From: Microcoleus sp. EPA2
GTDB lineage: Bacteria; Cyanobacteriota; Cyanobacteriia; Cyanobacteriales; Microcoleaceae
Length of the DNA: 64,000 nt
Reading direction: 5' to 3'
Assembly: GCA_020882975.1 (NCBI GenBank)
Contig: JAHRFD010000029.1
Span: 1 to 64,000 of the forward strand
Below the pieces are notes generated by a model. That model saw only the letters and a program-made list of their open reading frames with translations, was not told the origin of the DNA and ran no database searches. The position numbers and the translations under genes were made by a program. Shown here piece after piece: positions 42,920-47,884 of this stretch (the stretch's first letter is position 1; every line of letters starts with the position of its first letter).

Positions 42920-43636
42920 ATGTCTCAATCAATTGCGCCAGTTTTAACAGACCAGCAAGTTGATGATTCACCCACATTAACCTTTGAAGAATACCGAGTT
43001 TATCAAGGCGAACTTGATGTACAATATGAACTGTACAAAGGCAAATTAATTCCGATGCCAACAGCAACAGTTTTACACATCAAAATTTGCGAATATTTAG
43101 TTTATAAATTGCAGCGTTACCTAGCTGCTCATAATCTTGATTTAGTAGTAAAAACTGGTCTGGGAGTGAGAACTGATGAAGATAAATCCCGGATTCCCGA
43201 TGTAGTTGTCTGCACTCAAAGTCTTTTGGAACAAGCTGCTGCTAGATCCGGTGCAGGCATTCTCGATTTTGATGAAAAGCCGCTATTAGTGGTAGAGGTA
43301 GTGAGTGAAGACCGGCGGGCAGATTACGTGATCAAACGAGGGGAGTACGAACTAGCGAATGTGCCAGAATATTGCATTGTTGATCCAAAAAGTGGTAAGC
43401 AAAAAATTAGGCTTTTAGCATTGATTGAAGGTGAAGATGGTTACAATCAGACAGATTTCTTTCCTGGTGAAGATATGGTGTCTGTAGTATTTCCAGATTT
43501 AGTTTTATCGGTGGATGAAATACTAAATCCGCCATTGGTGGAGGAGTTAGTCAAAGCAGAACAAGCCCAATTGCAGAAAGCTGAAAGGTTGGCGGCGAAG
43601 TTGCGGGAGTTGGGCGTAGATCCTGATTCTGTTTAA
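42920..43636 (+). CDS. Uma2 family (DUF820) putative endonuclease
   Basis: A 238-residue PD-(D/E)XK-fold protein of the family hugely expanded in cyanobacteria. Core motifs: SRIPDVVVCTQ (metal Asp) and PLLVVEVVSEDRRADYVIKRGEY (Glu and downstream Lys). A short coiled tail (KAEQAQLQKAERLAAKLRE) ends in the typical LGVDPDS. Enzymatic activity has rarely been tested, and the genes move often. A second member lies at 62398. AGGAAA precedes the ATG. Confidence 0.85.
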   Translation: MSQSIAPVLTDQQVDDSPTLTFEEYRVYQGELDVQYELYKGKLIPMPTATVLHIKICEYLVYKLQRYLAAHNLDLVVKTGLGVRTDEDKSRIPDVVVCTQSLLEQAAARSGAGILDFDEKPLLVVEVVSEDRRADYVIKRGEYELANVPEYCIVDPKSGKQKIRLLALIEGEDGYNQTDFFPGEDMVSVVFPDLVLSVDEILNPPLVEELVKAEQAQLQKAERLAAKLRELGVDPDSV

Positions 43637-43671: not shown

Positions 43672-45138
43672 TCAATCGTCTAGCAGTAAATCGCGCAGGA
43701 AATAAAAGCGATCGCGCCATAAATTATCTCCTTTAATTCGCCCTGCATAACCTGTCAGCGGAGAAGAAAGTTCTACTAAAATTTCGTGCAACTCTTCGCG
43801 GGACAACTGCTTGGGTGGGTTAGACATGGAATACGCACCGCTCAAAGAATCAACACTGGCTCTTTTAGAACCTGTAGTTTCTAAATACTTTTTCAGAATA
43901 GAAAGAACGTGCGATCGCACTTTAAGCTTTTCCCGCACGTCGTCAATATAGCGATTAACCTTAGCATCGGCTTCCTCACCAAAGGGCTGTTGTTCCAAAC
44001 AAGGTTTTAACTCTAATAAATCGATCGAACCTGGTTGCTTAGCTTTCAATTCAACAAGTTTTTGCAATGTTTCCGGGCGGATGACGTTCATGTGGTTTCC
44101 GATAGCAGTTTGTTTAGCGTGTCTATTTAGCTGACCAGCGGCCATAATTATCTTAATACAGCAGTTGTATTGTTCCTGAAGATGCTTATGTCCTAACTTG
44201 ATAAGTTGCGCTGGCGTTCCATCAGCTACGGTTTCACTTTTGGTAGCTTTGCATTCTCCCACTACCTGGTAGGGAGTTTCACAGTAGAAATCTAATCCGC
44301 CAGCACCGCCTGTTGATTCTGGATCGAGGCTAGCTTCTGGTTTATTGTTAGAATTGGCAAATCCTAGCTTGATAAAACTCTTGCGGACTAATTTTTCAAA
44401 GCCATTACCGTCGCTAGAGTTTCCGATTTGTGCGATCGTTTTAATCCAATCTAAATCAATATCAGGTTTTGCTGTTGGTAATTTTTCTGACCAACCTAGA
44501 AATTTTTTGATTTCTGCATCTAGTTGTTTGGCTTTTGGGTTAGTAGTTGATAAATGCACTAATGCACTTTGCAACTCTTCCAATTCTGGATGTTCAGGAG
44601 GCTCTAGTTTTTTGAGATTTTGACTGCGTTTAGCAAACAGAAAATCACTCAAAACAGGCGTTGAATCAGTCACTGTTCGGGATTTGGGCAAAGATACAAA
44701 ATTGCCGCTGTGATGCACAGGCATTTCAAGCGGCTGAGGTAGCAGATAGACGCGAAGATGAGCTAGAAAAAGATAAGGTTTTTCTAAGAGAGTTTGGTTT
44801 AATGCCTCTGTTGTCCAGACTGTTAACTGCGACAAAGCCTCTAATGATTCAGGATCATTCAGCATTTGACACAATTCGCATCTAGCCCAAGCCTTAATCA
44901 AAACTTTCTCAGAACTTAACACAGCAAGTGTGTTTTGAGCGACAGGCAAAAAATGCGATCGATAATATCGATCGCCCGATAGCAAATCAACCGAAAGATT
45001 GGCTGGATACAAAGCAAATGTTCGCCCCGGATTCAGAAACATCCGAGGCATAGCTACAATCATTCGTCCTTGGATTAAAGCTTCAATATCTGGATTTGGT
45101 AAAGCCAGAGCTGTTTGAAGCAAAATTGATTTGCTCAT
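43672..45138 (-). CDS. Putative PD-(D/E)XK (Mrr-like) nuclease, third gene of wHTH-ATPase-nuclease operon
   Basis: 488 residues. The middle (about 240-360) shows a restriction-endonuclease core: Glu248 in NGFEKLVRKSFIKLGF, Asp283 in GGAGGLDFY and Glu295-x-Lys297 in VVGECKATKS, in the order E-D-ExK of Mrr/type IV-like enzymes. Residues 1-235 match no family I know; the C-terminal 90 residues look like a small helical domain. The ATG lies 2 bp after the ATPase stop, so the genes are translationally coupled. I infer DNA cleavage controlled by the ATPase; nothing proves the target. Confidence 0.7.
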   Translation of the reverse strand: MSKSILLQTALALPNPDIEALIQGRMIVAMPRMFLNPGRTFALYPANLSVDLLSGDRYYRSHFLPVAQNTLAVLSSEKVLIKAWARCELCQMLNDPESLEALSQLTVWTTEALNQTLLEKPYLFLAHLRVYLLPQPLEMPVHHSGNFVSLPKSRTVTDSTPVLSDFLFAKRSQNLKKLEPPEHPELEELQSALVHLSTTNPKAKQLDAEIKKFLGWSEKLPTAKPDIDLDWIKTIAQIGNSSDGNGFEKLVRKSFIKLGFANSNNKPEASLDPESTGGAGGLDFYCETPYQVVGECKATKSETVADGTPAQLIKLGHKHLQEQYNCCIKIIMAAGQLNRHAKQTAIGNHMNVIRPETLQKLVELKAKQPGSIDLLELKPCLEQQPFGEEADAKVNRYIDDVREKLKVRSHVLSILKKYLETTGSKRASVDSLSGAYSMSNPPKQLSREELHEILVELSSPLTGYAGRIKGDNLWRDRFYFLRDLLLDD

Positions 45139-45140
45139 GG

Positions 45141-47120
45141 TTAACTAAATAGGTCACTTAGATCCCCATCATCTGTATCATCACTGCTGGGGGGGTTGAA
45201 AATGTCTTCTAAAAGTAGGTTTTCATCTTCATCATCAACCGCAGGCATTTCACCGGAGGGATCGCTCAAAATTTCCCGCAATAAAAGATTCTCAAAAGTG
45301 AGCTGCTTCTGAGATATAAAGTCAAAAACCTGGTCTTCTGTTAAATTGTAATCTCGGCATTTTTTACAAACAGTACGGAGAGCCAGCAGCGGCTTTATTT
45401 GCTCTTCAATCAAATACACTACCTCACCGCCTTTTTCAACTGAGACAAGTTCCTCTAGTAGCTTGTACGCTTTAGAAGTTTTCTTGATATTTTCTATTTT
45501 GGATTGGGAACGTACTAAACAACCGCGCGTCAAATCAAAAGTTTGATAATCAATTAAGCGCTTTAATGCAGCAACCAATTCGGATTGAGCAGATTGGATA
45601 ATTGCAACACCAATCTTGATAGCTTTTCCGTTTTCGGTGCCAATTATCTTGTATCCGATCCAACCCGCATTTTTTGCTTTTGGTTTAATATCTGTGCTAA
45701 TGTCATCAACTGTTACCTTGTCAATCGTCTGACCTTTCAAGGTTTCAAAGCCAAAGTAAATAGCCTGAGCAATTGTGGAATTATCTTCGATATCCTCTTG
45801 GATATCAGCCCCAAGTTCCTGATTTAAGGCCAACTCAAACCGCTCAACAGGATCTTCTGGAAGTTCAGGCACTGGAGGCATAAAAACTTTAAAATTCTCG
45901 GCACACCAAGTCAAAGCTTCCCGTACAGTTGGCTTACCTCTGCCATATTCTCTCAGTTGAGTTTCCTCAAACGGGTAGACCGGATGAGGAGGGTTTAAAT
46001 TCCTGATATTATAAAAATCTTGCAACCACAACTGGACTAAATCGACTAAAGAATCGCTATTTAAGTATTTTAAATCGATTGGTTTTCGCTGCGTGTATGT
46101 TGAAAGTCGATCGGGTATACCGCCAGACATTACGTTAACTGTGTCTGTCCACGTATAGGGCATCATTACTGTGATAATAACCAAACCTTGACCGAGAGCG
46201 GAGTGTTCGAGAGTATCGTACAAACGTTTAACTAGATCGGCAATTACCTGCGGTGTTGTCAAGCCATCATCTCTACAACTTGTATTGACATCTATTTCAT
46301 CAAAACAAATGATTACAGGACTGTAGTAACTCACCAAATTTAAAATTTGCTGGACATTATTCAAAGATTCGGCTTCTCTGTCCTGATTGGTCTTGCCGGA
46401 ATTAGCAGGCAATCCTAGTTCCTCAGCTTTAGATGTATCTAGCTCTTCACCCGATAACCATTTGATAGCAAAAGGTGTTTCAACTTCAGATAACGTCCAC
46501 AAGACAGCTCGAACAATATAAGGATCGGCTTTGGATTTTGTTTTGAGAACTTGCTTAGTTAGGGTGTTCATAAAATTCTTGTTTTTAGTAGCCCAACTAG
46601 CACATACTCTGTCAAATCGCTTGATAAGTTCTTGAGGAGAAAGATTTGGTGTAGCAGAATTGATAGCTTTGAAACCTTCGTTTGCCATTGCAGCAGCTAT
46701 TTCCTGCCATTGCATAACTCTTTGGCTGCCTGTATGGCTCAAGCTGTTAGCTAAAGTTTGCTGAAATTGGTATTTTATCAAGTTTAAGTCGGTGTAATTA
46801 TTAACACTGGCATAAACGAACAAAGCACCTCCATTGGTTTCTAGTCTGTGGCGAGTGCGGCTCAAAATGTGGCTTTTTCCCACTCCTTGTTGAGCTGTTA
46901 ATACCAGTGAAGTCACTTTTTCTTGGCTGGATTGAGTAGTCTGTACTTTTTCAACAGCCTGAAAAATGGCATCGGAAGCGTGAGCATTTAGAGTCGGAAT
47001 ATCGGGAAAGCCTTTCCCCCAAATATCCTGTTCTTTGACAATTCCAGCTTTGCTAAAGGGATTGTGATTTTGGATGGCAGCATTGAGAGCTTCTATCGGA
47101 GAAACTGATATATTGTTCAT
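45141..47120 (-). CDS. AAA+-like P-loop ATPase, second gene of the operon
   Basis: 659 residues. Walker A is TAQQGVGKSH (Lys82) and Walker B is PVIICFDEID (Asp274, Glu275), with a roughly 190-residue helical region between; an arginine-rich stretch (GGIPDRLSTYTQRK) may hold the sensor or finger. The layout resembles ORC/Cdc6-like or NTPases of defence systems that load DNA effectors. The C-terminus is acidic (DDTDDGDLSDLF). The gene sits 47 bp after the wHTH gene and 2 bp before the nuclease gene. Family not recognised by name. Confidence 0.7.
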   Translation of the reverse strand: MNNISVSPIEALNAAIQNHNPFSKAGIVKEQDIWGKGFPDIPTLNAHASDAIFQAVEKVQTTQSSQEKVTSLVLTAQQGVGKSHILSRTRHRLETNGGALFVYASVNNYTDLNLIKYQFQQTLANSLSHTGSQRVMQWQEIAAAMANEGFKAINSATPNLSPQELIKRFDRVCASWATKNKNFMNTLTKQVLKTKSKADPYIVRAVLWTLSEVETPFAIKWLSGEELDTSKAEELGLPANSGKTNQDREAESLNNVQQILNLVSYYSPVIICFDEIDVNTSCRDDGLTTPQVIADLVKRLYDTLEHSALGQGLVIITVMMPYTWTDTVNVMSGGIPDRLSTYTQRKPIDLKYLNSDSLVDLVQLWLQDFYNIRNLNPPHPVYPFEETQLREYGRGKPTVREALTWCAENFKVFMPPVPELPEDPVERFELALNQELGADIQEDIEDNSTIAQAIYFGFETLKGQTIDKVTVDDISTDIKPKAKNAGWIGYKIIGTENGKAIKIGVAIIQSAQSELVAALKRLIDYQTFDLTRGCLVRSQSKIENIKKTSKAYKLLEELVSVEKGGEVVYLIEEQIKPLLALRTVCKKCRDYNLTEDQVFDFISQKQLTFENLLLREILSDPSGEMPAVDDEDENLLLEDIFNPPSSDDTDDGDLSDLFS

Positions 47121-47167
47121 GGCGATCGTGTGTGAGGTAACGAACTACAAAAAGATTGAGGGCAATT

Positions 47168-47884
47168 TTAGGAATTCAAACGTTTGGCGTAGTAACGCAA
47201 TGCACCACCAGGAATAGCGATCGAGTCTTCACGTTTATCTGGGGTGATGTCTTGCGTTTCTCCAGCCATTAGCTGGAAAATGTCATTAGCCTGCATTTCC
47301 AACAGCCACTCGTTGAATTGCGATCGCCCAACTCTTTCCCCGATCGCCCGCCGCATCCGATAAATCGGCACTAAATCGTCTAAGTTATAATCCCGGTTCA
47401 AGCTGTCATACACATCCAACGCCACAGACATAAAATCCTCATAGGAGGCGATCGCCCCTACATCCCCTTTCCCCGTCTCAACACCAACACCCGTCGCACC
47501 ATCCTCATGCCGCATCCATTTCAACAGAGCATTTCCCAGCCGAGCACCCATTTGAGAACCATCAAACTCAAACAAAGAATCCTGACTTTTCAAACCCGCC
47601 GCTAAAACTTCTTTCCCCTTCGCCGTCAGTTCCACCTGAGTCCGTCCCTTTTCCCGCAAATAGGCGATCGCTCCCGATTCCTCTAATTCCTTCAAAATCG
47701 GCTCATAAGTCTTTTTAGTCTCATTAGTTCTCGCAATCAGCTTAGTCAACTTCCCTTGATTAACCTTATTTTTCCCTTCCCCCTCATCCCACAAATTCAA
47801 CAGCACCCGAACTTTTGCCTTCGCATTCCACAGCAATTGCTCTGCGGCCGTCAACGCAATTTCAGCTTTTTTAGACATATTCAT
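47168..47884 (-). CDS. Winged-helix-like protein, first gene of the operon
   Basis: 238 residues. Residues about 20-95 look like a winged helix: NQGKLTKLIARTNETKKTYEPILKELEESGAI is arranged as helix-turn-helix, and AYLREKGRTQVELTAKGKEVL as the wing with the T-xKG motif common to MarR- and RepA-type wings. The second half (130-225) is a separate helical region. It may bind DNA as a regulator or as a recognition subunit. ATG 47878, with AAGG 7 nt upstream, is an alternative start. Leads the ATPase and nuclease genes. Confidence 0.65.
   Translation of the reverse strand: MNMSKKAEIALTAAEQLLWNAKAKVRVLLNLWDEGEGKNKVNQGKLTKLIARTNETKKTYEPILKELEESGAIAYLREKGRTQVELTAKGKEVLAAGLKSQDSLFEFDGSQMGARLGNALLKWMRHEDGATGVGVETGKGDVGAIASYEDFMSVALDVYDSLNRDYNLDDLVPIYRMRRAIGERVGRSQFNEWLLEMQANDIFQLMAGETQDITPDKREDSIAIPGGALRYYAKRLNS

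Follow-up and report, generated by a model that had tools for sequence, protein, structure and literature searches.

What does a compact, methylase-free operon for a winged helix-turn-helix (wHTH) protein, an AAA+ ATPase and a nuclease do in a cyanobacterial chromosome? The question is raised by positions 1 to 64,000 of contig JAHRFD010000029.1 of Microcoleus sp. EPA2 (assembly GCA_020882975.1), a 64,000-nucleotide stretch called the window below, in which a reading of the sequence alone (the sequence-only reading) had singled out such an operon as a candidate for an undescribed defence system. We find that the nuclease domain of this operon exists in classes that reassort nearly at random relative to the ASCH domain fused to it, to the ATPase and to the flanking genes; new here is that the wHTH gene tracks the flanking chromosomal genes while the nuclease domain reassorts. 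We give an even chance to the reading that the operon encodes a chromosomal modification-dependent (type IV-like) restriction complex.

A conserved three-gene operon

The trio lies on the minus strand with gaps of 47 and 2 bases between its genes, and these gaps, like the lengths of 659 and 488 residues, are exactly those given by the sequence-only reading. All three genes are intact, as are the Walker and nuclease motifs, and the 6.26 Mb genome holds a single match to the operon and a single match to DUF1802, the family of the nuclease N-terminus. The open reading frames and their parts, including an inactive restriction-endonuclease-like (iREase) segment, are:

47168..47884, minus strand: gene 1, a 238-aa winged-helix protein, first in the operon and its predicted DNA-binding subunit
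45141..47120, minus strand: gene 2, a 659-aa ATPase whose residues 10-414 are an Orc/Cdc6-type AAA+ core
45258..45731, minus strand: gene 2 residues 464-621, a predicted iREase-like segment and then a winged helix, as suggested by strand and helix order in the model
43672..45138, minus strand: gene 3, a 488-aa ASCH-like, PD-(D/E)XK and winged-helix nuclease
44620..45111, minus strand: gene 3 residues 10-173, DUF1802, an ASCH/PUA-like predicted reader domain
43933..44463, minus strand: gene 3 residues 226-402, a FokI/Nt.BspD6I-like nuclease domain (E248, D283, E295, K297), the exchangeable cassette, here of class 3
43675..43926, minus strand: gene 3 residues 405-488, the C-terminal winged helix, which forms another module and reassorts largely on its own

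Relatives of the ATPase at E ≤1e-5 occur in 71 of 386 cyanobacterial genomes, unevenly across the phylum. Sixty stretches picked from the listed ATPase matches form, with the window, an ATPase-led sample of 61 loci; 53 of these hold a relative of the nuclease, with the wHTH, ATPase and nuclease genes in the same order and on the same strand in 53 of 53 (the ATPase frame being split in 4), and the remaining 8 have the ATPase without this nuclease. A nuclease-led scan of GTDB contigs gave 244 relatives, of which the best 80 were kept, and its patterns favour close kin; the 79 resulting loci are all cyanobacterial by title, and 75 hold all three families, 2 of the 4 incomplete ones beginning within ~530 bases of a contig end. 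The operon is conserved, beyond what chance would give. Among the same best 80 of 244, the closest named kin by nuclease gene are Oscillatoriales (a metagenome-assembled genome), Lyngbya, Tychonema and Microcoleus records. The wider set mixes genomes and named records, so that one genome may at first be represented twice; once identical trios were dropped (123 to 114), the 114 trios have median gaps of 46 and 3 bases, and thinning of near-identical ones left 112.

The operon is most prominent in one family, f6 in our sample and presumably the Nostocaceae, where the nuclease profile matched at E 1e-10 in 172 of 192 genomes, 145 of these at 1e-80 or better. The 27 weaker-matching genomes may carry a separate, stand-alone DUF1802 protein; DUF1802 was also found in 2 of 14 control genomes, those of Synechococcus elongatus and Deinobacterium chartae. 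The strong matches in 145 of 192 genomes are also what one might see of a housekeeping system for DNA repair or replication restart, in which the ASCH-like domain would read damaged or modified host bases, the Orc/Cdc6-type ATPase would load and the nuclease would incise. We regard this explanation as unlikely, since ATPase relatives are absent from most of the phylum sample; further evidence on both sides of it appears below.

Predicted folds of the three proteins

The N-terminal part of gene 3, which the sequence-only reading could not assign, matches Pfam DUF1802 (PF08819, E 1.9e-31) and has an ASCH/PUA-like predicted fold, of a kind known for readers of modified bases. A FokI-like nuclease core and then a winged helix follow in the predicted structure. 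The catalytic residues Glu248, Asp283, Glu295 and Lys297, recognized from the outset as a full nuclease core, are invariant in 53 of 53 relatives, and the complete tetrad is kept in 138 of the 141 nuclease genes of the larger set. As modelled, a PUA-type reader fold joined to an intact nuclease motif would be the pairing expected of type IV restriction. Residues 49-80, a candidate recognition surface, vary more than most of the ASCH-like domain when 15 close relatives are compared, as do residues 1-8.

The putative reader also bears on a further possibility, that the complex restricts unmodified sequence and the host is protected by a methylase encoded elsewhere in its genome. The operon itself is free of a methylase, as the sequence-only reading had noted, and orphan methylases are common; we nonetheless consider this possibility very remote, since an ASCH/PUA-like reader favours modification dependence and no methylase recurs among the neighbour clusters (at least 3 loci, judged by eye; the rest of the genome was not searched).

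Structure comparison of the predicted fold identifies the ATPase core as Orc/Cdc6-type, and its top fold group consists of Orc/Cdc6, TnsC and BrxC, all ATPases acting on DNA. Across 114 aligned ATPases the Walker A residues G79, G81 and K82 never vary, and in Walker B D274 is kept in 113 and E275 in 103 (11 Gln), which bears out the earlier choice of Lys82, Asp274 and Glu275. C-terminal to the AAA+ core, strand and helix order in the model fits an iREase and then a wHTH domain; the D...ExK pattern is absent from aligned ATPase columns 488-509, and the VIA-align and Foldseek lists, made with the whole-protein model only, have no row clearly covering this part. The NCBIfam matches of the ATPase are far under cut-off (DS41_1, 23 bits against 370; Sll1717, 32 against 75), and the best 12 of 266 literature matches held nothing relevant on either family.

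The fold group of the ATPase is pertinent to the idea of an abortive or self-directed effector, in which a triggered sensor complex would cut host DNA and the ATPase would be a switch, not a DNA loader. The resemblance to DNA-acting ATPases argues against it, as does the position of the putative reader on the nuclease itself, and we judge such an effector improbable.

Gene 1 adjoins the ATPase and nuclease genes in 53 of 53 nuclease-bearing loci; its profile matches are weak and wHTH-like. A search by sequence found no solved relative of gene 1 and no convincing solved relatives of the operon proteins. A known named defence system was considered and rejected: of the three gene products, PADLOC matched that of gene 1 alone, weakly, to a CARF-type wHTH protein.

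Exchange of the nuclease domain

Within the window's genus (L032 to L036) the DNA flanking the operon is ~77-90% identical, and nuclease residues 217-404 divide the loci into two sets: window, L033, L034 and L035 on the one hand, and L032, L036 and L054 on the other. Identity of these residues is 70-95% and 90-95% within the sets and 40-43% between them, where the N-terminal and C-terminal parts are 65-94% and 54-92% identical (L054 is a genus mate whose flanks are unmatched to the window's by blastn, so that the same site is not established for it). Between L033 and L036, DNA identity drops at codon 217 from 94% to roughly 40-75% and returns to 94% at codon 408.

The same domain forms three classes in the 112 distinct trios (56, 33 and 22 members, and one outlier), with median identities of 63-76% within and 44-54% between classes. 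Excess information on class membership is 0.13-0.68 bits per 12-residue block across residues 217-408 and nowhere else in the trio's proteins exceeds 0.09. The classes change 41 times on the ASCH tree, 41 times on the AAA tree and 3 times on their own tree, against a shuffled mean of 47.7 (the trees leave out 18 of 141 nuclease genes whose trio is incomplete or split). Because the lowest count in 300 shuffles is 40-41, a value of 41 changes means that reassortment is not perfectly random, and the counts of 37 for the wHTH protein and 39 for the C-terminal helix are lower than in any shuffle. As a control, two ATPase classes (51/49) change 16 times on the ASCH tree and 20 times on the wHTH tree, against 46 when shuffled; this balanced split arises only at 8 clusters, and the ASCH, wHTH and most ATPase cuttings are lopsided (at least 96 of 112 in one cluster) and say little.

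In per-topology likelihood resampling every foreign tree was rejected (0/2000), even between halves of the same ATPase, so that rejection alone means little, and we put the weight on label changes and on the size of the loss relative to a relabelled tree. By that measure, gauged with one relabelling per partition, the AAA tree preserves 0.83 of the likelihood gain that the ASCH data show on their own tree over a relabelled one, and the tree of the fused nuclease domain preserves 0.31. The C-terminal winged helix (labels 88/19) is largely independent of the rest too: whichever other tree is used, its labels change 22 or 23 times, the shuffled value being 23. Its distances keep a correlation of r 0.46 with the wHTH protein.

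The conserved chromosomal site of family f6 holds all three nuclease classes (11, 8 and 4 loci) and allows a comparison with four flank genes, each present in 13-17 loci. Flank-gene distances correlate with those of the wHTH protein (r 0.70-0.87, p 0.001) and the ASCH part (r 0.44-0.81, p 0.003-0.012), weakly with those of the AAA part (r 0.24-0.59, p 0.034-0.085) and the C-terminal helix (r 0.07-0.34), and not with those of the nuclease domain (r -0.04 to 0.11, p 0.075-0.61). Near-free swapping of nuclease classes with median identities of 44-54% would be unexpected for a repair enzyme. Of 195 genomes in the order, 91 contain the cassette; because 91 of its 98 matches sit in frames of 464-545 aa, the donors are probably other trios.

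ATPase alleles are exchanged as well: in L054 (5433-9638) the wHTH protein is 77-95% identical to the window's per 60-residue block and the ATPase 35-55%.

Chromosomal setting

In 23 of the 53 loci, all of family f6, one or more of four shared neighbours stand no more than 6 genes from the trio; from their sequences we take these neighbours to be fpg-like, malate-dehydrogenase-like, peptidase-like and branched-amino-acid permease-like. In the window and L032 to L036 (6 of 53 loci) it lies beside genes that are presumably gpmI-like and NUDIX, names read from sequence, with a Uma2 gene too in 5 of the 6. The Uma2-family gene of the window (42920-43636; PADLOC PDC-S03, E 2.5e-46) faces the 3' end of the operon; Uma2 is a very common cyanobacterial family. 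The locus is therefore at fixed chromosomal sites beside housekeeping-type genes in f6 and the window's genus, and not in all cyanobacteria; the housekeeping synteny that the sequence-only reading had named as a sign against defence thus exists in part of the phylum.

Several observations weigh against a role in defence. No recurrent defence neighbour, another sign named beforehand, was seen, with the window's own 48 genes as the only background for comparison; these other 48 genes match look-alikes of housekeeping genes and one Uma2. A scan of 137 of 147 listed flank genes at 29 hand-picked loci, mostly outside the two conserved sites, gave PADLOC matches (25 of 46 matched families listed) that are mostly singletons, including one DpdF-type and one Cas12f-type, plus Uma2; a defence island is not shown by these scans. 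Neither ATPase nor nuclease was confirmed in viral contigs, and a search of phage records, made for the ATPase alone, gave no match. A role in repair would likewise fit an operon so prevalent at a fixed site; the housekeeping-type neighbours, among them a MutM-like (fpg) gene near 15 of 53 loci, and the absence from viral contigs lend it support.

A mobile or phage-borne element found no support in the searches of plasmids, phage records (ATPase) and viral contigs; on plasmids the nuclease was unmatched and the ATPase had one weak match (Pseudanabaena, 21.8%).

Tandem copies and related operons

Some loci hold the operon more than once. Two or three trios stand in a row in L099, L101, L130 and L132, with two nuclease classes per array, and in L118 two nuclease genes belonging to a single class lie apart; such divergent tandem copies argue further against repair. 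In Oscillatoria sp. PCC 10802 (L101:2215-16063) there are three tandem trios of two nuclease classes, the middle wHTH gene being split. In three other loci one ATPase gene is followed by two nuclease genes, the second of which lacks all four catalytic residues in 3 of 3:

L115:11570-13015: dead second copy of the fused ASCH and restriction endonuclease (REase) gene, tetrad replaced by AEKQ
L159:11685-13130: dead second ASCH-REase copy, tetrad replaced by KNTP
L166:11584-13032: dead second ASCH-REase copy, tetrad replaced by QNTP

These copies keep the conserved ASCH residues W84, C87, W108, R129 and Y131; speculatively, a dead nuclease partner could form a heterodimer or serve as a decoy.

A sister operon was found in three loci:

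L089:5284-10977: wHTH-like gene and Orc/Cdc6-like ATPase (662-686 aa in the three loci)
L091:5496-10980: the same make-up
L090:6527-11576: the same make-up

The third protein in L089 and L091 has 3'-5' exonuclease, PD-(D/E)XK, FtsK-alpha and FtsK domains. The sister ATPase is ~26% identical to the window's over the matched part, and the wHTH-like gene is weakly related or unmatched; ATPases of similar size are weakly matched in many of the 386 genomes. Other arrangements include members of the ATPase family without wHTH or nuclease relatives, adjoining a TerF-like vWA protein in one genus (L077:8184-10830, L078, L079); an extra wHTH-profile protein of 324-416 aa upstream of some trios (L062:6753-7727, L126, L128, L130, L132, L152); and one wHTH gene flanked by two divergent ATPases before a single nuclease gene (L052:1245-7386).

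A proposed role in restriction

The ASCH-like, FokI-like, winged-helix and Orc/Cdc6 folds, all predicted, support a modification-dependent restriction complex, and a plan of DNA binding, ATPase and nuclease is, as the sequence-only reading held, one used in counter-invader systems. Further points in favour of such a complex are the constancy of the trio, the tetrad intact in 138 of 141 genes, the sister operon described above, the reassortment, the divergent tandem copies and the existence of cyanobacterial phages with modified DNA. Gene 3 would use its ASCH/PUA-like domain, with help from the wHTH protein and the winged helices, to inspect DNA for a modified base as the mark of non-self; the Orc/Cdc6-type ATPase would assemble on the marked DNA and license the FokI-type nuclease domain, which would then cut. 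A host without the mark would need no methylase. Alleles trade the nuclease domain and the C-terminal winged helix, probably through homologous recombination, while the wHTH gene and the ASCH domain remain with the locus and the ATPase does so more loosely; phage inhibitors or competing copies that select on the nuclease surface may keep the variation. If the complex does restrict modified DNA, some three quarters of the genomes of one large cyanobacterial family (145/192) would have it as an immune system, and it would be a source of modification-dependent nucleases.

More tentatively, and with somewhat less than even confidence, we picture a fixed immune locus with two interchangeable cassettes. 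One would comprise three nuclease alleles that keep their catalytic motif, the other would be the C-terminal winged helix, and both would be close to linkage equilibrium with the reader and the ATPase. Balancing selection would maintain them, with phage inhibitors (or cross-talk between copies) acting on the nuclease and not on the recognition domain, and some loci would add a dead second nuclease as partner or decoy.

Comparison with known systems

The operon was not undescribed, as the sequence-only reading had supposed: we dropped the word because PMC10853773 (NAR 2024), in the portion of its text accessible to us, names the same three components, predicting in one sentence that an operon of Orc/Cdc6, ASCH-REase and a DndG-like triple-wHTH protein is a counter-invader. 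The window's trio has the Orc/Cdc6-family AAA+ ATPase and the REase fused to an ASCH domain, and we infer, as far as that text allows, that it is the same operon. The wHTH protein of PMC10853773 has three wHTH domains, whereas the window's has 238 aa and weak wHTH-like matches; and that text calls the neighbourhoods mobile, a description that we do not read as part of the definition, whereas here the sites are fixed and chromosomal in 23 and 6 of 53 loci. In the literature covered, which included few subscription papers, we found no experiment on such an operon and no nuclease-domain exchange in such a locus, and DUF1802 only in a soil-network paper.

The authors of PMC10853773 link the HerA/FtsK-capture ATPase to the ASCH-REase operons and state, for the HerA/FtsK-linked group, that an iREase is inserted between the AAA+ core and the C-terminal wHTH (same portion of the text). 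The sister operon of L089 and L091 has the make-up of that capture system, which strengthens the identification of our trio with the predicted operon. The capture systems resemble the trio in having a distantly related ATPase and a wHTH-like gene; their effector, as described there, is an FtsK-nuclease fusion, ASCH is unmatched in the sister operon, unlike the trio, and no FtsK/HerA translocase was matched in the window's three proteins.

As in VcaM4I-type PUA/EVE/SRA modification-dependent endonucleases (PMC7897488, accessible portion), a PUA-superfamily reader is fused to a nuclease; VcaM4I is a sensor-nuclease fusion (HNH) there, whereas the fusion described here is constantly accompanied by an AAA+ ATPase and a wHTH protein. 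Unlike BREX with its BrxC/DUF499 ATPases (PMC12839542, likewise in part), the window's operon is without PglZ, methylase and helicase; the joint set of BrxC, PglZ and a BrxX/PglX methylase is lacking, and the matches of the window's other 48 genes include no BREX family. Cyanobacterial phages with modified DNA are on record, namely S-2L (PMC8342488) and S-B43 (PMC12783734), both sources accessible in part.

The closest parallel for a variable chromosomal site between conserved genes is the E. coli hsd locus or immigration control region (PMC12707154), for which the portion available also discusses negative frequency-dependent selection. Unlike the hsd locus, the present one has a nuclease domain and a C-terminal winged helix that move and a putative reader that stays with the ATPase. 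At hsd, whole systems and specificity reportedly vary, and where a restriction locus varies in place it is usually the recognition module that differs; because here the cutting module and the C-terminal helix are traded and the putative reader stays with the ATPase, the nuclease surface would be the contested site.
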